From positions 1 to 43,257 of IMG/VR virus record IMGVR_UViG_3300021197_000784: 43,257 nucleotides of DNA; one strand, given 5' to 3'. The position numbers were made by a program, and so were the translations under genes. This DNA is from a virus. Each line of letters opens with the position of its first letter. The stretch's first letter is position 1. Positions 7,127 through 43,257 of the stretch are shown piece after piece. Below the pieces are notes generated by a model that was not told the origin of the DNA, did not search any database, and was given only the letters and a program-made list of their open reading frames with translations.

Positions 7127-9547
7127 ATGGCAGAGTCTGGCATTAAAAGTTATTTCCCGAGTCAAACTGTAAGCGATGCTGAGAAGCTTAGCTATGAATA
7201 TGGTTTAAAAGTAGGTAAAGCTATAGAGCAGGAGTGGTTCAACAATGATAGAAGTTCTAATAGATATAGAACTAATCATAATAATTTTCATAATTTAAGG
7301 TTGTATGCAAGAGGCGAACAATCTATACAAAAATATAAGGATGAGTTGTCTATAAATGGTGATTTGTCCTATTTAAATTTAGACTGGAAACCAGTTCCGA
7401 TTATTTCTAAGTTTGTAGATATAGTTGTAAATGGAATTGCTGAAAGAACATACGATATAAAGGCTTATTCTCAAGATCCTTTTGGTATAAAACAACGAAC
7501 AGAATATATGGAATCTATAATCAGCGACATGCAAGCCAAAAGCTTTAACGATGCTGCTATGGAAGATTTCAATGTTGATCTTTACAAAAATAAAAAGAAA
7601 GATTTACCAGAATCTGAAGAAGAACTATCGCTTCACATGCAATTGAGTTATAAACAAGCTATAGAGTTAGCAGAAGAACAAGCTTTAAATGTTTTATTTG
7701 ATGGTAATAATTACGAGTTGATAAAGAAAAGGTTTTACTATGATTTAACGGTATTAGGTATCGGCGCTGTTAAAACGAACTTTAACACGTCTGAAGGAGT
7801 TACTATAGATTACGTTGATCCAGCAAATCTTGTATACTCTTATACAGACTCTCCTAATTTTGAAGACATATATTATGTTGGTGAAGTAAAAAGTATCCCG
7901 GTAAACGAATTAGCAAAACAATTTCCTCATTTGTCTGAAAGTGATCTTGAAGATATAATGAAAAATAAATCTAATAATAGATCTAATTATAACTCAAGAC
8001 ATAGTTACGATAAAGAAGACAATAACACTATTCAAGTTTTGTACTTCAACTATAAAACCTATATGAACGAGGTCTATAAAATGAAAGAAACTGGAACTGG
8101 AGCTGATAAGATTATACCCAAAGATGATTCGTTTGATCCTCCACAAGATAAAGAAGGTGGATATAGTAAGATGCTAAGATCTATTGAGTGTCTTTATGAA
8201 GGCGCTATGATACTTGGTACAGAAAAGCTGCTTAAATGGGAGATGTCAAAAAACATGATGCGTCCTAAAAGTGATTTTACTAAAGTTAAAATGAATTATA
8301 GTATTGTAGCCCCTAGAATATATGATGGTAGAATTGATTCGTTAGTAAAGCGTATAACAGGTTTTGCTGACATGATTCAGTTGACACATTTAAAGTTACA
8401 ACAAGTAATGTCTCGCATGGTTCCAGATGGTGTTTACTTAGATGCTGACGGTTTAGCTGAAGTTGATTTGGGTAATGGAACAAACTACAACCCGCAAGAA
8501 GCTTTAAACATGTTCTTTCAAACTGGATCCGTCATAGGTAGATCATTTACAAGTGAAGGTGATATGAACCCAGGTAAAGTACCTATTCAAGAAATTACAT
8601 CTGGATCTGGTGGTAATAAAATGCAAGCTCTTATTGGTAACTACAATTACTACTTACAAATGATAAGAGATGTAACCGGGCTTAACGAAGCTAGAGATGG
8701 TAGTATACCAGATAAAAATGCTTTAGTTGGAGTTCAGAAATTAGCAGCCGCTAATTCAAACACGGCAACTAGACATATATTACAAGCTGGTTTATTTTTA
8801 ACGGCTGAGACGGCTGAGTGCTTATCACTTAGAATATCTGATATCATAGAGTATTCACCAACTAAAGACGCTTTTATACAGGCAATAGGTACACACAACG
8901 TTGCTACATTAGAAGAAATGAAAAACCTTCATTTATATGACTTTGGTATATTTTTAGAGTTAATGCCAGATGAAGAAGAAAAAGGCATTTTAGAAAATAA
9001 TATTCAAATGGCTTTACAGCAACAAACTATAGAGCTAGAGGATGCTATCGATCTTAGGGAAATAAGGAACGTTAGGTTAGCTAATCAACTTCTTAAAATA
9101 CGTAGAAAAAAGAAGATGGATAAAGATCAGGCTATGCAACAGCAAAACATGCAACAACAAGCCCAGCTTAATCAACAATCAGCACAAGCAGCAGCTCAAG
9201 CCGATGTTCAAAAGAACCAGGCATTGAATGCTGGTAAAGCAGAGTTACTACAAATGGAAGCTCAAGTAGAATCTCAAAGAATGATGCAAGAGGTTCAAAT
9301 GAAAAAAGAGTTAATGGCTTTGGAGTTTCAATACAACATGCAACTTAAGGGCGTTGAAGTTGATGGTATAAAAGACAGGGAAAAGCAAAAAGAAGATCGT
9401 AAAGACGAAAGAACAAAAATACAAGCAACACAACAATCAGAGATGATTGAGCAAAGAAATAGTGGTAAACCGCCTAAAAACTTTGAGTCCGCAGGTAATG
9501 ATATACTAGGTGGAGGATTTGATTTAGGTTCGTTTGACCCTAGGTAG
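7127..9547 (+). CDS. portal protein
   Basis: This 806-aa protein lies directly between TerL and the scaffold/capsid genes. The first ~600 residues have the portal pattern: an N-terminal helix with YGLKVGKAIEQEW, WKPVPIISKFVDIVVNGI (about 86-103), GIGAVKTNF and VDPANLVYSY in the clip/wing, and a long central helical part. The last ~170 residues are a Gln/Met-rich and charged helix (MQQQNMQQQAQLNQQ, about 664-678, then KKELMALEFQYNMQLKG), likely a barrel or crown that reaches into the head. It would form the dodecameric ring through which DNA passes. About 800 residues fits the large portals of Bacteroidota podoviruses. Confidence 0.85.
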   Translation: MAESGIKSYFPSQTVSDAEKLSYEYGLKVGKAIEQEWFNNDRSSNRYRTNHNNFHNLRLYARGEQSIQKYKDELSINGDLSYLNLDWKPVPIISKFVDIVVNGIAERTYDIKAYSQDPFGIKQRTEYMESIISDMQAKSFNDAAMEDFNVDLYKNKKKDLPESEEELSLHMQLSYKQAIELAEEQALNVLFDGNNYELIKKRFYYDLTVLGIGAVKTNFNTSEGVTIDYVDPANLVYSYTDSPNFEDIYYVGEVKSIPVNELAKQFPHLSESDLEDIMKNKSNNRSNYNSRHSYDKEDNNTIQVLYFNYKTYMNEVYKMKETGTGADKIIPKDDSFDPPQDKEGGYSKMLRSIECLYEGAMILGTEKLLKWEMSKNMMRPKSDFTKVKMNYSIVAPRIYDGRIDSLVKRITGFADMIQLTHLKLQQVMSRMVPDGVYLDADGLAEVDLGNGTNYNPQEALNMFFQTGSVIGRSFTSEGDMNPGKVPIQEITSGSGGNKMQALIGNYNYYLQMIRDVTGLNEARDGSIPDKNALVGVQKLAAANSNTATRHILQAGLFLTAETAECLSLRISDIIEYSPTKDAFIQAIGTHNVATLEEMKNLHLYDFGIFLELMPDEEEKGILENNIQMALQQQTIELEDAIDLREIRNVRLANQLLKIRRKKKMDKDQAMQQQNMQQQAQLNQQSAQAAAQADVQKNQALNAGKAELLQMEAQVESQRMMQEVQMKKELMALEFQYNMQLKGVEVDGIKDREKQKEDRKDERTKIQATQQSEMIEQRNSGKPPKNFESAGNDILGGGFDLGSFDPR

Positions 9548-32200: not shown

Positions 32201-35200
32201 CTAAAAAGGATTTTAAAAATATTGAAAAAAGCGTAAATAACCAACTAAAAGGAGATCTTGCAGAACACATGAAGACTATAGATTACATGGCTTCAGAGAT
32301 GACTAAAAAACTTCAAGAAGCTCAGGTAAACGGAGACACAGAGGCTATAGCCGCTTATGAGTTTGAATTAGGCAGATTAAAAGATGCTGCTGAGTACGCT
32401 AATAATTTTAAAGCAGCAATCAATGTTGCTCCTGAAAATGTTACTGATGAAGATTTAACTCTATTAACTGAAAAAATAAGATTAGAAAATTTAAAGAAAA
32501 ACCAAGATCCCGCTTTTCACGCTGCTATTGATCAGCAGTTAGAGAAGATAAACGAGAAGATAGAAAAATCTACCATACAGCAAAAAGCCGCTGAGACAAG
32601 TAAAAAACTACTTGAGAGAACAACTAATAATATAAAAAAATTAGCTGGCGCAAACGGTAGTCAAGTAAAAGAGTTTGGTAGTGGAGACAATCTTGATACT
32701 GGTGGAGAGGGATTCGCCCCTGGTTCACCACCTGCTAAAACAGCTAAAGAAGAGATAGACGATTATATAAGTCTAAAAGACGAAAACGGTGAGTATATTT
32801 TTGATGAGAGTACTAGAGATCAAGTATTAAATAATGATTTTTATGGAACTTACGTTAAAGATAGAAAAGGCAATAAGATTTTATTGGTAAACAAGGATGC
32901 TTCACAAGTTGGTGAGGGTGTTAATGTAGCTGCTCATGAATTCTTACACCAAATGTTAGAAACTACTTTCGCGCAAACAGACGCCAATGGAGATATTATT
33001 AGAGATCAAGATGGTAATATAAAAGTTGATAAAAAGAAAGCTATAGGTATAGGTATGGAGCTTGGTAAGTGGGTGGCTGAGGTACAAGGTCAAGATTTTA
33101 TTAACAGTGAGATGAATAAAAGATTGCAGAGAGCTTATAGTGGCGCTGATGCAAACGTTCAAATGCAAGAAGTATTAACGACATTATCCGATGCTTTAGT
33201 AAGTGGTGATATGGTGTTTGAAGAAACTGCTTTCGAAAAGTTAGGTGGAGCGCTTAGAAGGACTTTCCAGAAAATGGGTATGGATATAAAGTTTAACACT
33301 GGTAAAGACGTATTTAATTTCATAAAAGATTATAATAAAACAGTCTCACAGGGTAAAAAACTTAGTAAAGCTCAGAAAAAAGTAATGACACAAGGCGCTC
33401 AAGTTGGTGGGGCTATTGCAAAAACCATAAGCGGAGAACAAGTAGCGGAAATACAACAGGCTGAGGATTTAAACTATAAAAAACAATTATTATTTGACAA
33501 CGGTATTGATCCGGACTCTGAGCTTGGAAGAACATTTCTTATGTCAAAACCAAGTAACGTTGGTGCTTTGTTAAATAGATTTGACGGGAACAAAAGAAAA
33601 ATGATAAGTGAATCTATATCTAAAACAAAAGACGGTAGAGATGTCATGGATCTTAAAAATAGAAAAGGAGAATACGCTGAAGATAATTTCTTTCAATCTG
33701 AATTTGGACAAGAGATAGCACCAATAACCGAGACTATAGCTAAAAGATTATTCGATCCAATACCAGTTAACTTAAGAAATGGAGTAACGCGAGCTAGATA
33801 TTTAAACGAATTAACCGTGATAGCTTCAAGTTTAGTAGAAAGAGAGTTCGATCCAGCTAAACAAGATATAGACAAGTTTATAAGTAATAGATTAAACCTA
33901 AGAGCTAATAAACTTGCTTCAGATTTAGGTATTGAATCAACAGTTGAAGAGGGAGGTTTAGGTGCAGCAGTAGGGCTTGAGGCGGTTGCTGAGCTAACTA
34001 CTGAGGAGTCTGGTCCAACAGCTATTGATAAGAATAAAATTATATTATCTGACAGGTTAGGGGTTAAAAATAAAGTTGATAAAGCTATTAAAGCAAAGCT
34101 GTCTGGATTAGATATTGAAAACTTAAACTTCAAAACTTTAAAAGATCAAGCTCCAGAGGTTACAGGTGAAATGTTTGGTATATCTCCTAAAAAACTTATC
34201 AGCGGAGCTAATATAACTAAAAAAGAACTACAGTCCGCACAAATGTTTATTAGTAAAAATGCAGATGTGTTAATATCAATGTTACCTGAAGGTGCAACTG
34301 CAAGTGGTACGGCTACTGGAGTACCTAAAACCTTATTAACGCCGTTTTATACTAAAACTGATAGAGCTAAAATGGCTAAAACTGGTACTAAAGCTGGTTT
34401 AGCAGTTCAAGTTAAAAAACCTAATATAAGTAAAGCAGAATTTTTAGAGGTATTTGGTATCGTAGATGGAGTTCCTAATCGTACGGATAGAAATACATCG
34501 GCCAGAGTATTAGCTATAGCTAATCAAACTGGTAAGATAATGACTAATCAAGCTGTAAGACAAGAGCTCTTAAAACAAGGTAAACCGTTACAATCGTTAA
34601 GTCATTTGGCTGATGGTAAGTCCATGATTATGTTTAGCAAAAAATCAGGTCAAAAAAACATGCAGGTTATTGGTAACATGGATAGATCTTTGAGCCAGGA
34701 AGCTAAAGTATTGTTTTGGAACGATATATCGGCTTTTGCTAACGAAAATATTTTAGATAGAAATCTAGAAAGTATTAAAATAGGATTAAGAAATGTTTAC
34801 GAAAATATACCTGAGATTAATAGTAACATTGACGAATTAGCAGCGGCTATTCACGGTACTATTAATAACTTTAAAGATCCTATATTAAAAAACCCAATAA
34901 AATTAGTTGATAAGCTATTGGAGGCTAACAACAGACAATTGTCTAAGGTAAAAGAATTTTTTAACAGTAACATAACAGCTGCAGATCTTTTTAGAGATCC
35001 GCAAAGAGTTAAAAACTTTGTTGCTACTACAAGTGTATTGTCTAACAGGCTTTTTGATCCTAAAAACCCTGGTAAGTCTATAGCTACAATAATATCGATG
35101 AAAGGTCATTTGGCTTCATCAAGCAGAAACTCTTATTTAGATAGAAAACAACCGTTTCCGGGTAATCCAGAATTTTTAAAAGCAACGCTTGGATCTATAC

Positions 35201-38200
35201 CTGGAATTGAGTTTAAAACGAAAAAAAGTAAAGACGGCAAAATATCGTTAGATAAAAATAGTGTTAAGTACAATGGAATACCTGTAAAATTACCAGGTAT
35301 TACATCTGCGCAAAGTAGTAAGAGCGCACTAAGTGATGCTAACAATAGTGTAAAGCTTGATGAGCGAAGTAAAAACGAAGATATAGCTCAAGAGCTTTTA
35401 GATGAAATAACAGATTTTTATGTTGGATTATATAACGATGGTGAGATTGATAATGGAGACTTACAGATGGTTTCCGCGTCATTATTGTCAAACATGGATT
35501 CTGTTTTGGCTAGAGCTGCTAAATTAAAATACGTGTCTGACAATGCTTATGACTTTAAGAATCCTGGTCAGGAGGTAAAATACGAGCACATGCAACCTAG
35601 AGTTGCTGTTCTTTTAAACTTATGGAATGCTAAAATAAACGGAGGTGGCGTTTCTAACATTAAAGACTTTCTTAAAAACTACACTATACAAGTAATACCA
35701 AATACGATGGACAAGGTTATTACAGATTCAAAACTAGGTGAATCCTTATACATAGGCCAAACATTAGAAATGCCTTCATGGATAAGAACTTATAACGAAA
35801 CTACAAAAGAGAACGATAAGGGTAGGTTACGACCCTTGGTGGACGTTTATACTAAAGAGGTTTTAAAACCTTCTGAAGCCATTGTTAAGGGCTTAAGAAT
35901 ATTAAAACCAGATATTAAGAAAAACCAAATGTTTAGTAAGGCCGTTAATATCTCTAGAACAGTCAACCCCGTTAGAGGTATTACTGTTTTAGATTTTGAT
36001 GACACACTAGCCACGACTAAATCTGGTGTTAGAGCAAAAATACCAAATACAGACGGGACACCAAAACCAAAAAGAAAAGTTATATTTTTGGCTGGTGGAG
36101 CTGGCAGTGGTAAAGGTAATGTTATTAGTAAGTTAGGTTTAGAAGATCAAGGATTTAAAGTGGTGAACTCTGACATATCTTTAGAGTGGCTTAAGAAAAA
36201 CAATGGATTACCAGAGAACATGAATGATTTTACTAAAGAACAAAGAAGTAAGTTGGGTTCTTTACAACATCAAGCAAGGGGTATTGCTAAAAGAAAAATG
36301 ACAAAGTATAAAGGCAACGCTGATGGAGTTGTTGTTGATGGAACCGGTGGATCTATTAAGTCAATGGAAAAACTAGTTAACGAGTTTAAGGATAAAGGAT
36401 ACGATGTTAGTATGATGTTTGTTGAAACGTCGTTACCAGTGGCATTACAAAGAAACGCTGCTAGAAAAGAAAGATCTTTATTAGATAAAATTGTTACAAA
36501 AAACCACGAAGCAGTTCAAGGTAACAAAGATGGTTTTAAAACTATGTTTGGTGATAGGTTTATGGAAGTTAATACTGACAATCTAAGCCAACAAGATGCA
36601 ATGCCTACTAAACTTACAGAACAAATGAATGACTTTGTTAGCGGTTACGAGAACAGACGATTAGACGCTGAGGAGTTTGCTAGTGAGGGGGCTGATATAT
36701 TGGATCAAGGTGGAACATTTGATTTTTCAGAGTTTAATAAAGTTGTTGAAGGTCAGACAGCACCATTGTTTGAGAAGGCAATGAAGTTGCAAGGTAAGTT
36801 TGGTAACAAGGATATGTTTGTGTTAACAGCTAGGCCAGCTGAGTCAGCTCCAGCTATATTTGAATTTTTAAAAGCTAATGGTCTAAATATACCTATAGAG
36901 AACATTACTGGCTTAGCTAACTCTACACCTGAATCTAAAGCTCTTTGGATGGCTGATAAAGTTGGTGAAGGTTATAATGATTTTTACTTTGCAGATGATG
37001 CTTTGCAGAATGTACAAGCTGTTCAAAATATTTTAGATCAAATGGATGTTAAATCTAAAGTTCAACAGGCTAAAGTTAAGTTTTCTAAAGGTGCAAGTCA
37101 AACTTTTAACAACATACTAGAATCAACAACTGGTGTTGAATCTATAAAAGAATTTTCTAACGCTCAAGCGAAATTAAGAGGTCAGAAAACTAAATATAAA
37201 TCTATAATACCAGCATCTGCTCAGGATTTTCAAGGGTTGTTATACAACTTCTTAGGTAAGGGTAAAAAAGGAGAAGCAGATATGGCTTTCTTCAAGAAAG
37301 CTTTAATAGATCCGTTTGCTAGAGGTATTAATGAGTTAAACGCATCAAGGCAAGCAGCTGCAAACGATTTTGAAAATCTAAATAAACAATTTCCTGATGT
37401 TAAGAAAAAATTAAACAAAAATATAAAAGATTTAGATTATACTTATGACCAAGCCATGAGAGTTTATCTTTGGAATCAATCTGGGTTTGAAATTCCTGGT
37501 TTGTCAAAAAGAGATTTAGCAGCTTTAACTAGTCTTATAGAAAATAACCCTGAAATGAAGGCTTACGCTGACGCTATAGGTTTAATTTCTAAAAAAGAAG
37601 ATGGTTATTCACAACCTAAAGACTATTGGTTAGCTGAAAGCATTGCTTCTGATTTATTGAGTGATGGTGCAATTGGAGATAAAAGATCTGATTTTCTTGC
37701 TGAATGGAAGCAAAATAAAGACACAATATTCTCTGCTGAAAATCTAAACAAAATAGAAGCTATATATGGCTCTAAGTTTAGAGAGGCTTTGGAAGATATA
37801 TTGTATCGTATGGAAACTGGTAGAAACAGACCAATGGGTGGCGGTAGGTTAGTAAATGGCTTTATGAACTGGACAAATAACTCTGTTGGAGCTATCATGT
37901 TTTTAAACTTACGTTCTGCTACATTACAAACTATATCAGCTGTCAATTATGTTAATTGGACTGACAATAATCCTGCTAAAGCAGCCGCGGCATTTGCTAA
38001 TCAACCACAGTTTTGGAGAGACTTTTCTTATATATTTAACTCTGATTATTTAAAGCAAAGAAGATCTGGTAATCAAAGAGGTGTGAATGAATCAGAGTTA
38101 TCTGAAGCGGTTGCTGGTAGTGACAATAAAGCTAAGGCAGCTATAGCTTGGTTACTTAAAAAAGGATTTACACCAACACAGATAGCGGATAGTTTTGCGA

Positions 38201-39357
38201 TATCCATGGGTGGTGCTACGTTCTACAGAAATAGAATTAAAACGTATGTTAAAGAAGGTATGACTACAGAGCAAGCTGAAAGTAAAGCTTTTTTAGATCT
38301 TCAAGAAACAACAGAGGTAAATCAGCAATCAGCAAGACCCGATATGATATCGCAGCAACAGGCGTCTCCACTTGGTAGATTAATACTAGCGTTTCAAAAT
38401 ACTCCAATGCAGTATGCTAGAATAATGAATAAAGCTACTAGAGATTTAGCAAATGGTAGAGGTGATTACAGAGCTCACATATCTAAGATTGCTTATTATG
38501 GCTTTGTACAAAGTGTAATATTTGGTGCTTTACAATCTGCATTATATGCTTCACTTGGAGATGATGATGAAGAGGATTTTGATAGAAAGAAAGAGAGAAT
38601 ATTAAATCAAATGGTAGATTCTTGGTTAACTGGTATTGGTTATGGTGGTAAAGCTATAGGTACAGTTAAGAATACTATAATGGAATATTTAAAGCAAAGA
38701 GATAAGGGTTTTAACTCCGATCACGCTTACACGCTGTTAACTCTACTTAGCTTTTCTCCACCAATAGGGTCTAAATTACGTAAAATATATTCATCAATAC
38801 AAACTGAAGAGTTTAATAGAGGTGTTTTTACCAAAAGAGGATTTACTTTAGACAATCCTATTTGGTCTGGTGTTGGTAATGTTATTGAAGGTGTTACAAA
38901 TGTTCCGCTTGGTAGAATCTCTAATTTAATGCTACAACTAGATAATGCTATGGATCCTGCTCATAAGTGGTGGCAGAGAGTAGCTTTGCTATTAGGACAA
39001 AACACTTGGGATTTAGGTATTAAAGATCCAGATATCGAAGCTATTAAAGGTGAGATAAAGGAAGAGAAGAAAGAAGCATCTAAAGAAAAGCAAAGAATAA
39101 AAAAAGAGCAAAAGAAGAAAGAAAAAGAAGCTGAAGGCATTGAAAAGCAAAAGAAAGAAAAGAAACAAGGTAAGGAATTGACGTGTCTTGTTTGTAAGCT
39201 TCCTGTTGTTAAAGGTAAAAAGTATTGCACAATCCACGAAAAGAAAGAACAAAACAAAAGTGGTAAGAAAAAGCAGTGTAGAAAATACAAAAGTGATGGT
39301 AGTAGATGTAAAGTAAAAACATCTAATAAAAGTGGGTATTGTTACTACCACGATTAG
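29221..39357 (+). CDS. 3378-aa multidomain internal/polyvalent virion protein
   Basis: This is the largest gene here. Residues about 118-175 hold two similar units (LFNALKSKNLYSSDYNAF and LFKVLKRKKLYSKDAGAF); about 327-680 is coiled coil; about 790-900 is hydrophobic. HEFLH (H1239, E1240, H1243) is a metallopeptidase motif. A HAD phosphatase-like domain has motif I DFDDT (D2258, D2260), motif II T2536 (VLTARP), motif III K2573 and motif IV D2592-D2593. Between motifs I and II lies a P-loop kinase-like module (GGAGSGKG 2292-2299, VVNSD, VVVDGTGG, VETSLPVALQRNAARK). About 2660-3280 resembles the conserved end of giant proteins of marine podoviruses. The end has two zinc-binding motifs (C3322-C3325-C3336-H3339; C3353-C3363-C3374-H3377). 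It is probably packaged and ejected, acting early in the host. No RNA polymerase or transglycosylase motif was found. Confidence 0.75.
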   Translation: MSEVFIDNKYQGGYVGDLETLANHFQGGDINNPLDVDDIEALISSQNNIDLIIDNKIPLTTEARGTLDKLLKFHDKDYINNFRSTYFTEQENDTLPKPTVEEVAETTEEPTSEPSFKEQLFNALKSKNLYSSDYNAFQEQFSTPENQQELFKVLKRKKLYSKDAGAFMNTFFPITDETIEEVETTEEVETQVDPHITYDKLTNLDAYESTFQSEEVFGGSLLIDKEKAMVKNLQDHYGEEFSFTVQDEFGRNDVVVATTGDSKTATVKNGRKHEIDTSNKMYKNNPEKYLQRFYGWVEQSKKDSKVEAVTNREVDAVTGEISKTAGLAPTESNDEKIKSLEKVIENEVGPSQKKADAEAELVEYKETKREKEFDQTAIKEKELTEQYNTELQQKQDTHFEYLKNEGINEDSSEWRAEMDKIRKQHDKNFGKRRLAIVNDYQGTYEDRKTSKKEKTKFSHLDKKTHTKEEIYTAAIANLKKDIPRGYGLGFVGEEGENTFDWLPSEDEWKLLDGMSFQEIEELAGVRLDGDDAGMDATLWDSRKKRDQVDAIRFKLTKQDARDASRKLKVLEDEIKVIQQEKEDLDGVRSDLDARAEEWKTGGLVDLENLSKEIDGLPQPTTQEELDYYQDKVDQYNMLREEGLALQRDTDNYNTSLEAYNKKTTEFGVQVEAAEAMKSDAIGKYGFEIVEGVWKDNSTNFKSIKDYEKWRKEHKITHSFFDKDAWAVLGQGLVNTAAKYYTGTSLWALNGLDAATGGAFSMGDERYTRLDALNSMYEKYTDYDYFGKATAEDYGEKGGPSGFLNKGSLAIAEGLPFMLAIAASSGRSGFKPNMFTRTLGKKLLDVEFANKIRMAQTAFHITAMDNTLEGKAMGLNDKQAWAYGGIVGTVTGMTQMIMPDAQFFKGGVIDKVLKDGLGTTLKGFTTKEGLEFAGERWATNVLKEIVEEEAEMVLSDVAKASFGLGHSLESTELKNHLKLIHDTAWLSGGMGAVGAKKDFKNIEKSVNNQLKGDLAEHMKTIDYMASEMTKKLQEAQVNGDTEAIAAYEFELGRLKDAAEYANNFKAAINVAPENVTDEDLTLLTEKIRLENLKKNQDPAFHAAIDQQLEKINEKIEKSTIQQKAAETSKKLLERTTNNIKKLAGANGSQVKEFGSGDNLDTGGEGFAPGSPPAKTAKEEIDDYISLKDENGEYIFDESTRDQVLNNDFYGTYVKDRKGNKILLVNKDASQVGEGVNVAAHEFLHQMLETTFAQTDANGDIIRDQDGNIKVDKKKAIGIGMELGKWVAEVQGQDFINSEMNKRLQRAYSGADANVQMQEVLTTLSDALVSGDMVFEETAFEKLGGALRRTFQKMGMDIKFNTGKDVFNFIKDYNKTVSQGKKLSKAQKKVMTQGAQVGGAIAKTISGEQVAEIQQAEDLNYKKQLLFDNGIDPDSELGRTFLMSKPSNVGALLNRFDGNKRKMISESISKTKDGRDVMDLKNRKGEYAEDNFFQSEFGQEIAPITETIAKRLFDPIPVNLRNGVTRARYLNELTVIASSLVEREFDPAKQDIDKFISNRLNLRANKLASDLGIESTVEEGGLGAAVGLEAVAELTTEESGPTAIDKNKIILSDRLGVKNKVDKAIKAKLSGLDIENLNFKTLKDQAPEVTGEMFGISPKKLISGANITKKELQSAQMFISKNADVLISMLPEGATASGTATGVPKTLLTPFYTKTDRAKMAKTGTKAGLAVQVKKPNISKAEFLEVFGIVDGVPNRTDRNTSARVLAIANQTGKIMTNQAVRQELLKQGKPLQSLSHLADGKSMIMFSKKSGQKNMQVIGNMDRSLSQEAKVLFWNDISAFANENILDRNLESIKIGLRNVYENIPEINSNIDELAAAIHGTINNFKDPILKNPIKLVDKLLEANNRQLSKVKEFFNSNITAADLFRDPQRVKNFVATTSVLSNRLFDPKNPGKSIATIISMKGHLASSSRNSYLDRKQPFPGNPEFLKATLGSIPGIEFKTKKSKDGKISLDKNSVKYNGIPVKLPGITSAQSSKSALSDANNSVKLDERSKNEDIAQELLDEITDFYVGLYNDGEIDNGDLQMVSASLLSNMDSVLARAAKLKYVSDNAYDFKNPGQEVKYEHMQPRVAVLLNLWNAKINGGGVSNIKDFLKNYTIQVIPNTMDKVITDSKLGESLYIGQTLEMPSWIRTYNETTKENDKGRLRPLVDVYTKEVLKPSEAIVKGLRILKPDIKKNQMFSKAVNISRTVNPVRGITVLDFDDTLATTKSGVRAKIPNTDGTPKPKRKVIFLAGGAGSGKGNVISKLGLEDQGFKVVNSDISLEWLKKNNGLPENMNDFTKEQRSKLGSLQHQARGIAKRKMTKYKGNADGVVVDGTGGSIKSMEKLVNEFKDKGYDVSMMFVETSLPVALQRNAARKERSLLDKIVTKNHEAVQGNKDGFKTMFGDRFMEVNTDNLSQQDAMPTKLTEQMNDFVSGYENRRLDAEEFASEGADILDQGGTFDFSEFNKVVEGQTAPLFEKAMKLQGKFGNKDMFVLTARPAESAPAIFEFLKANGLNIPIENITGLANSTPESKALWMADKVGEGYNDFYFADDALQNVQAVQNILDQMDVKSKVQQAKVKFSKGASQTFNNILESTTGVESIKEFSNAQAKLRGQKTKYKSIIPASAQDFQGLLYNFLGKGKKGEADMAFFKKALIDPFARGINELNASRQAAANDFENLNKQFPDVKKKLNKNIKDLDYTYDQAMRVYLWNQSGFEIPGLSKRDLAALTSLIENNPEMKAYADAIGLISKKEDGYSQPKDYWLAESIASDLLSDGAIGDKRSDFLAEWKQNKDTIFSAENLNKIEAIYGSKFREALEDILYRMETGRNRPMGGGRLVNGFMNWTNNSVGAIMFLNLRSATLQTISAVNYVNWTDNNPAKAAAAFANQPQFWRDFSYIFNSDYLKQRRSGNQRGVNESELSEAVAGSDNKAKAAIAWLLKKGFTPTQIADSFAISMGGATFYRNRIKTYVKEGMTTEQAESKAFLDLQETTEVNQQSARPDMISQQQASPLGRLILAFQNTPMQYARIMNKATRDLANGRGDYRAHISKIAYYGFVQSVIFGALQSALYASLGDDDEEDFDRKKERILNQMVDSWLTGIGYGGKAIGTVKNTIMEYLKQRDKGFNSDHAYTLLTLLSFSPPIGSKLRKIYSSIQTEEFNRGVFTKRGFTLDNPIWSGVGNVIEGVTNVPLGRISNLMLQLDNAMDPAHKWWQRVALLLGQNTWDLGIKDPDIEAIKGEIKEEKKEASKEKQRIKKEQKKKEKEAEGIEKQKKEKKQGKELTCLVCKLPVVKGKKYCTIHEKKEQNKSGKKKQCRKYKSDGSRCKVKTSNKSGYCYYHD

Positions 39358-41855: not shown

Positions 41856-43257
41856 ATGAAAAAGTTACTACTACTATTATTACCGTTCATAACGCTAGCG
41901 CAAGGTCCACCTAACTGCGTGCCTACAACTATTATTATAAACCTTGATCAATATCAAAGTGAAACATACTGGGGTATAACTGATACTAACGGTGTTTTGT
42001 TAACTTATGGTCAAAACTATGGATCAGAACCTGATTATGGCGTTGTTATAGAGCAAAGATGTTTACCACCAGGTCCATTAACTTTTACAATATATGATAG
42101 TTATGGAGATGGTTTAAATGGAGCTTTATGGGGTGGTTTAGATGGTTCTTATTATGTAGTACAATGTTATGATACTATAATCACGGGTACTAATGCTGCC
42201 TTTGGTAGTGATACGGCCCACGTCTTGCTATCAGCACCTTGTCCACCTATATTTGGTTGTATGGATTCTTCTTATGTAGAGTTTAATCCTAGGGCAGATA
42301 CAAGTGACGGCTCGTGTTCTGAGTTAAAAGTATATGGTTGTATTGATTCTACTATGTACAACTATAATGACTCGGCAAACACAATGTCTTTGGTATCGGC
42401 ATGTGACTACATATTAACACTAACAGATTTAGTTGGTGATGGTTGGGCAGCATCAAACTTAGAGGTAACACAAGGCGATAGCACTTGGAACTTTACATTA
42501 GATACAGCTGCTTACTCTCAAGAGTACGTTATAAATTTAAAAGCACCTCAACCAGTTTCATTTAAGTTTTCAATATCACAGCAAGCATTTCAATCAGCTG
42601 CTCACTGTGGATTTAAACTAACAAACCCATTAGGTATGACTATGATAGAAGTTATACCACCTTTTATACAGCCTTTATTTAAACGTACTATACCAACTTA
42701 TTGTGGTAATTATTGCATCAACAAAGTATTTGGTTGTATGGATTCTTTAGCATTAAACTATGTAGATACAGCAAACACTGCTCTACCATGTTTTTATGTG
42801 CTTGGTTGTACTAACTCTTCTTACTTAGAATATTACACACAAGGTTTCACAGCTGATACTAGCGATGGATCTTGTCAAACACAAGCTGTTTGGGGTTGTA
42901 CTTCTTCAAGTGCTTTTAATTATGATCCGCAAGCTAACATAGATAACGGTGGTTGTATAGCTGTTGTAGTTGGCTGCATGATAAGTGGATCTTTTAATTA
43001 TAACCCACAAGCTAACACTCCTGGAACTTGCGTGCCGTTTATTTACGGATGTACTAGTGATATAGCTTTAAATTATAATCCTAATGCTAACACAGACGAT
43101 GGTAGCTGTATAGGTATTGTTTATGGATGCACTGATCCAAACGCATTTAATTTTGACCCATCTGCAAACGTAGATGATAATAGTTGTATAGATATAGTTT
43201 ATGGTTGTACAGATGCAACTATGTTTAACTACGATCAACTTGCAAACATAGACAACG
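41856..43257 (+). CDS. secreted Bacteroidota-type repeat protein (5' part, runs off the window)
   Basis: At least 467 codons are open to the right edge. A signal peptide (KKLLLLLLPFITLA, cut before Gln16) leads to a domain with FTIYDSYGDGLNG, a pattern common in secreted Flavobacteriia proteins; a similar LVGDGWAASNLEV recurs later. At least nine Cys-bounded units of the form GC-x-D-x-x-x-x-NY-x-x-x-AN-x-DDGSC follow, irregular at first (from about 42255) and tandem from 42894. The protein is therefore a modular cell-surface or secreted adhesin-like product, unusual in a phage late region. It could be a host-derived moron gene or a phage appendage. Whether it has a C-terminal secretion (T9SS) domain lies beyond the window. 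Confidence 0.75.
   Translation, partial: MKKLLLLLLPFITLAQGPPNCVPTTIIINLDQYQSETYWGITDTNGVLLTYGQNYGSEPDYGVVIEQRCLPPGPLTFTIYDSYGDGLNGALWGGLDGSYYVVQCYDTIITGTNAAFGSDTAHVLLSAPCPPIFGCMDSSYVEFNPRADTSDGSCSELKVYGCIDSTMYNYNDSANTMSLVSACDYILTLTDLVGDGWAASNLEVTQGDSTWNFTLDTAAYSQEYVINLKAPQPVSFKFSISQQAFQSAAHCGFKLTNPLGMTMIEVIPPFIQPLFKRTIPTYCGNYCINKVFGCMDSLALNYVDTANTALPCFYVLGCTNSSYLEYYTQGFTADTSDGSCQTQAVWGCTSSSAFNYDPQANIDNGGCIAVVVGCMISGSFNYNPQANTPGTCVPFIYGCTSDIALNYNPNANTDDGSCIGIVYGCTDPNAFNFDPSANVDDNSCIDIVYGCTDATMFNYDQLANIDN
42894..43257 (+). repeat. tandem ~78-bp coding repeat
   Basis: Units begin at 42894, 42972, 43047, 43125 and 43203 (78, 75, 78, 78 bp apart; the last is cut by the edge). Each encodes 25-26 residues such as GCTDPNAFNFDPSANVDDNS. 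The DNA copies are diverged at many positions while the Cys, Asn-Tyr/Phe and Asn-x-Asp positions are kept, so selection acts on the protein. Earlier degenerate copies occur at about 42255, 42345, 42733 and 42804. Confidence 0.85.

Follow-up and report, generated by a model that had tools for sequence, protein, structure and literature searches.

The Pnkp enzymes of phage T4 and the bacterium Clostridium thermocellum combine a P-loop kinase and a phosphatase in one chain; in T4 Pnkp the phosphatase is a HAD enzyme and follows the kinase end to end. A different way of joining an additional domain to a HAD is found in P-type ATPases, where the domain inserted into the flap binds ATP. P-type ATPases belong to the C1-capped HADs, in which a separate domain is inserted in the middle of the flap; for HADs of the open C0 type, PNKP among them, substrates tend to be macromolecules, for capped HADs small metabolites (PMC8069645). 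The polyvalent proteins of phages and conjugative elements (Iyer et al. 2017, PMC5512222) are very long multidomain proteins encoded near structural genes, which carry zeta-like kinases and ADP-ribosyltransferases (ARTs) in variable combinations.

The giant phage protein described here shares with the polyvalent proteins its length, its location near structural genes, a zeta-like kinase and a variable set of domains. However, the effectors of the polyvalent proteins are strung end to end, whereas here one effector is nested in the cap loop of another enzyme, a nesting of kinase and HAD that was not encountered in the searched passages of PMC5512222. The presence of a P-loop kinase and a phosphatase in one chain recalls Pnkp, but the kinase is located in the flap of the HAD. 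Such an insertion in the middle of the flap is common to P-type ATPases and other C1-capped HADs, but the inserted domain is a P-loop kinase, a fold that the literature searched does not list as a C1 cap. Nor did the same literature yield any account of a P-loop kinase in the role of HAD cap, although such a search cannot prove absence. The known kinds to which the protein can be assigned are polyvalent proteins and capped HADs, and a P-loop kinase in the place of the cap adds a new form to them.

The protein is encoded in the window, that is the whole 43-kb viral record analysed (43,257 nucleotides), and its features are listed in Table 1. The HAD module and the next ~650 residues are its best-conserved parts. 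In alignments of relatives, identity per 100 residues is mostly 0.12-0.35 within the N-terminal region and reaches 0.40 in its last block. The motifs of the original prediction, DFDDT, GGAGSGKG, VVNSD, VVVDGTGG, RNAARKERS and HAD motifs II to IV, were all recovered at their predicted residues within one uninterrupted ORF. D2260 of motif I and T2536 of motif II are indeed 276 residues apart, with the kinase between them.

Table 1. Features of the giant protein and of the muzzle-like protein (positions in the window)
Feature	Residues	Position	Strand	Remarks
Muzzle-like protein	2999 aa	15412-24411		crassvirus muzzle families
Giant ORF, uninterrupted	3378 aa	29221-39357	+	last very large gene in the head/tail gene block; polyvalent-type protein
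N-terminal region	~2200-2250 aa	29221-35976	+	poorly conserved, highly variable among relatives
HAD part 1	2253-2275	35977-36045	+	strand S1 with motif I and first flap-hairpin strand
HAD motif I, DFDDT	2258-2262	35992-36006	+	D2258/D2260
Nested P-loop kinase	~2283-2474	36067-36642	+	zeta/AAA_33/Pnkp-like; sits in the C1-cap position, on the tip of the flap hairpin
Walker A, GGAGSGKG	2292-2299	36094-36117	+	
VVNSD	2314-2318	36160-36174	+	aligns to T4 Pnkp D35 (general base); Leu at the R38 position
VVVDGTGG	2370-2377	36328-36351	+	conserved D-G-T-G aligns to the SDT segment of T4 Pnkp
Lid arginines, RNAARKERS	2411-2419	36451-36477	+	RNxxR common to T4 Pnkp R122-R126
HAD part 2	~2476-2617	36646-37071	+	second flap strand, helix, S2-S5
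HAD motif II, VLTARP	2534-2539	36820-36837	+	T2536
HAD motif III, lysine K2573	2572-2573 (SK)	36937-36939	+	position of K2573
HAD motif IV, FADDA	2590-2594	36988-37002	+	DD2592-2593
Conserved C-terminal region after the HAD		37093-39120	+	0.48-0.67 identity per 100 residues; found in essentially every aligned relative

The prediction that the kinase is nested inside the HAD fold was borne out by an AlphaFold2 model of residues 2248-2624 (pLDDT 89.7, pTM 0.80). In the numbering of this fragment, where residue 1 is residue 2248 of the giant protein, strand 6-11, which carries motif I, precedes strand 23-28; then come the kinase (about 36-227), strand 229-234 and the remaining HAD elements, in which strand 285-289 ends with motif II and strand 340-345 with motif IV. 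The flap strands thus flank the kinase, and HAD elements are located on both sides of the P-loop fold. In a separately modelled kinase-less HAD, the equivalent two strands (22-26 and 32-36) form a plain hairpin with a short turn. The order of strands and helices in the models is that of a Rossmannoid core with squiggle and flap hairpin. By these models, residues 2253-2617 make up a single HAD phosphohydrolase, with a flap hairpin that opens around a complete and conserved zeta/Pnkp-like P-loop kinase in the place of a C1 cap.

By sequence the HAD scores below the Pfam cut-offs. Motifs I to IV nevertheless provide the aspartate nucleophile, the second aspartate two positions further, the Thr/Ser, the lysine and the acidic pair, and, in fragment numbering, D11, D13, T15, T289, K326, D345 and D346 do not vary among 48 relatives, whether these have a kinase or not. 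The solved folds closest to the kinase-less model are mostly HAD phosphatases (phosphoserine phosphatase, Lem4, EYA2; E 6e-4 and weaker) and Pnkp is absent among the best 50, ranks that serve just to confirm the HAD superfamily, since this model is weaker (pLDDT 73). To the phosphatase of T4 the HAD could be aligned at motif I only. The kinase-less form gives a weak match (22 bits) to phrog_415, a family named polynucleotide kinase.

The inserted domain was identified as a zeta/AAA_33/Pnkp-like P-loop kinase by its Walker A motif, an aspartate after strand 2, the lid arginines and its fold. Residues 2281-2419 match the Pfam families AAA_33 (E=2.5e-8) and Zeta_toxin (E=5.4e-8, 33 bits), both passing the cut-offs. 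Among PDB folds, the whole model is best matched by the C. thermocellum Pnkp kinase domain (E 6.5e-8, TM 0.73 on the target), followed by epsilon/zeta (zeta/PezT) and T4 Pnkp; searches of PDB sequences with the fragment, the kinase or the HAD gave weak matches only. A kinase profile built from nested and free-standing relatives could be aligned over 144 columns with T4 Pnkp (E=3.6e-8). The kinase has the fold, P-loop, general base and RNxxR lid of Pnkp, with the positions of K15 (the P-loop lysine), D35 and R122/R126 of T4 Pnkp retained in the profile. In T4 Pnkp, R38 contacts nucleic acid; the corresponding column of the profile is leucine, so that an arginine of the R38 type is absent, and apart from the weak phrog_415 match no similarity specific to the Pnkp phosphatase was found in the HAD. 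With Zeta/PezT toxin kinases (PF06414) the domain shares the Pfam match, the fold and the DGT(G) segment, but it differs from them in being part of a giant phage protein. Zeta and Pnkp could not be separated by family or fold scores in the Pfam, PDB and PHROG comparisons.

To the same kinase family belong phrog_12810 and the free-standing kinases of phages HTVC008M, Melnitz and Atu_ph07 (34-40% identity). Elsewhere in viral contigs, members of the family stand alone or are fused to a DUF5824 or nucleotidyltransferase domain; none of these known members lies in a HAD. A related kinase is located within a cyanophage minor head protein. Searches of bacterial and archaeal genomes for homologues yielded two remote kinases only, with 27% identity. 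Across nested, tandem and free-standing kinases there is no or almost no variation in the Walker A lysine, the catalytic aspartate, DGTG and the lid arginines.

Natural controls for the nesting were obtained by surveying the spacing of motifs I and II in viral contigs. The survey gave 250 distinct sequences, two of which were false starts, leaving 248 distinct HADs. The spacing is 78 residues in 157 and 79-80 in 45 of them, and 277 with a kinase in 44; a short hairpin without kinase is thus present in 202 of the 248 and a kinase at identical spacing in 44. In two relatives, each represented by a single locus, another insert is found at the same flap site. One (L080, HAD at 7989-8930) has 136 extra residues matching ART-PolyVal PF18760 (E=0.0011, 20 bits, against a cut-off of 31 bits) and provides a further likeness to polyvalent proteins, in which such domains are described (PMC5512222). 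The other (L327) has 88 extra residues with no assigned family. In L185, L199 and L245 the kinase is placed in tandem directly after a kinase-less HAD, 199-200 residues past motif I, the assignment of L245 being made from spacing. In L198 a kinase without HAD follows a HExLH region. The nested arrangement is genuine and recurrent, and it is evolutionarily active. Since relatives lack the kinase or have a swapped one or a different domain at this site, the flap hairpin resembles a socket for exchangeable parts.

When the HAD tree is built without the insert, three changes of the nested state are required, at least two of them enforced by well-supported branches; because this tree is unrooted, gain and loss of the kinase are indistinguishable. 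Exchange of the kinase is indicated by discordant identities. Compared with L009, the window shows 86% identity in the HAD and 61% in the kinase; compared with L005, the values are 66% for the HAD and 86% for the kinase. Block identities shift close to the domain borders. The kinase tree groups the window with L001, L002 and L005 (support 99/94), whereas the HAD tree places L005 with L167 and L177, beyond a strongly supported branch. L197 forms a long branch and its placement is unsure. By these discordances, modules are exchanged in place. Values of dN/dS are 0.03-0.21 for kinase and HAD alike; both enzymes are under purifying selection and keep their catalytic residues. Together, the comparisons show the HAD and the C-terminal ~650 residues as the constant part and the kinase as an optional module, whose presence has changed at least twice and which has been exchanged in place between phages.

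Terminase, portal and a virion structural protein of the window match PHROGs. The terminase is closest to that of an uncultured podovirus (63%), followed by those of Flavobacterium and Cellulophaga phages (38-46%), and on account of this kinship a flavobacterial host is likely. The muzzle-like protein matches PF25729 (E=3e-7, above the cut-off) and, just under the cut-off, PF25731. In addition, the gene order corresponds to that of Flavobacterium and Cellulophaga phages and is crAss-type, which, with the muzzle protein, identifies the window phage, which is marine, as a relative of crAss-like phages.

The giant gene follows the muzzle gene and small virion genes, as do in elemoE and phi38:1 the genes for gp18 and gp101, which carry structural annotations (gp101 by similarity to phi18:1). 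The giant proteins of cultured relatives gave no significant sequence match to that of the window. For crassviruses, an ejection of large cargo proteins is assumed (PMC10172136). From the place of the gene and this kinship, ejection of the giant protein with the DNA is plausible. The polyvalent character is reflected in a very long chain with unrelated effector domains in variable combination, namely a variable N-terminus, kinase and HAD, a HExxH-type motif and the ART-PolyVal-like insert of one relative.

The reading we favour, and consider somewhat more probable than its negation, is that of a HAD with a nested, optional and exchangeable catalytic kinase cap in a polyvalent-type internal virion protein. 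The giant protein would enter the cell together with the phage DNA; there the kinase would transfer phosphate to a nucleic-acid hydroxyl or a small molecule, and the HAD would dephosphorylate a substrate of its own. By covering the HAD active site, the kinase could narrow or regulate access to it. The tip of the hairpin would act as a socket for plug-in domains, such as the ADP-ribosyltransferase-like domain of one relative, and by the relation between caps and substrates (PMC8069645) kinase-less phages would have an open HAD. A nucleotide or nucleotide-sugar type molecule can be put forward tentatively as substrate of the kinase; 5'-OH ends of nucleic acids rank behind it and seem unlikely. 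It is doubtful, but conceivable, that the hairpin is a standing socket, with a fixed phosphatase shell, swapped catalytic effectors such as P-loop kinases and ADP-ribosyltransferases, and an active cap giving a nested, mutually regulated effector delivered with DNA.

End repair of the Pnkp type, raised as a possibility in the original prediction, was supported in part only. A Pnkp-type end-healing enzyme converted from end-to-end to nested order would phosphorylate 5'-OH and remove 3'-phosphate at tRNA or DNA ends, to be sealed by a ligase. The Pnkp folds and the T4 profile alignment with its conserved catalytic positions and RNxxR lid uphold the kinase side of this proposal, and the phrog_415 match and an RNA ligase in three records with nested kinase point in the same direction, but the leucine in place of R38 and the resemblance of the HAD to the T4 phosphatase at motif I only speak against it. 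A kinase that serves RNA repair might be expected to occur together with an RNA ligase. The RNA ligase PF09414 is present in 11/16 members of a kinase-less clade with DFDETL, in 0/11 of the other kinase-less clade and in 3/30 nested records, the last count being a lower bound since most nested records are shorter fragments. The ligase follows the clade and not the kinase, and an RNA-repair context was rejected on this ground. No other AAA_33 kinase was found in 18 records of kinase-less phages, and PF09511 had no match in relatives and none in control genomes either. The distribution of ligase and kinase lends end repair no support, and end healing appears rather improbable.

We give a similarly low rank to a zeta-toxin-like kinase, which would phosphorylate UDP-N-acetylglucosamine and weaken the cell wall at entry, with a HAD that is unrelated or reverses the product. 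The Zeta_toxin match, the zeta/PezT folds and the kinase inside the cyanophage minor head protein favour it, as does a published precedent, proposed for the zeta-like kinases of polyvalent and MuF proteins (PMC5512222), but sequence and fold scores do not set zeta apart from Pnkp. Its position at the cap and its optional presence would also suit a kinase that merely shields the HAD as a passive structural cap; the conservation of the catalytic residues in nested, tandem and free-standing members makes a non-catalytic role very unlikely. That 44 distinct relatives have the same spacing and 157 the exact short spacing argues against a chance arrangement of motifs. An assembly artefact was rejected by the 44 distinct occurrences, and with these coming from many metagenomes and with the residues of both domains conserved, the probability of a chimera or of chance motifs is negligible.

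HAD caps help to set the substrate of the enzyme. A full kinase in the cap place, together with natural kinase-less, tandem and swapped versions, provides a ready comparison set for the control of a host enzyme by an inserted one. It also shows that phage polyvalent proteins diversify by plugging domain into domain, beyond the addition of beads on a string.

Several minor observations concern the same region. PF09414 RNA ligases were found in L398-L401 and in records G002, G005 and G008. The giant protein contains a metallopeptidase-like HEFLHQ motif of the HExxH type (window 32935-32952), and around and just after this motif lies its only, weak similarity to a giant protein of cultured relatives, elemoE gp18. 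Its Cys/His-rich tail (window ~39175-39354) weakly matches DUF5763 and is possibly zinc-binding. The muzzle-like protein is about twice as long as its counterparts in elemoE and ctfjg026. At 41856-43256, an ORF cut by the end of the window has a signal-peptide-like start, followed by repeated units of the type GC-D-x-NYNPxAxxDDGSC.
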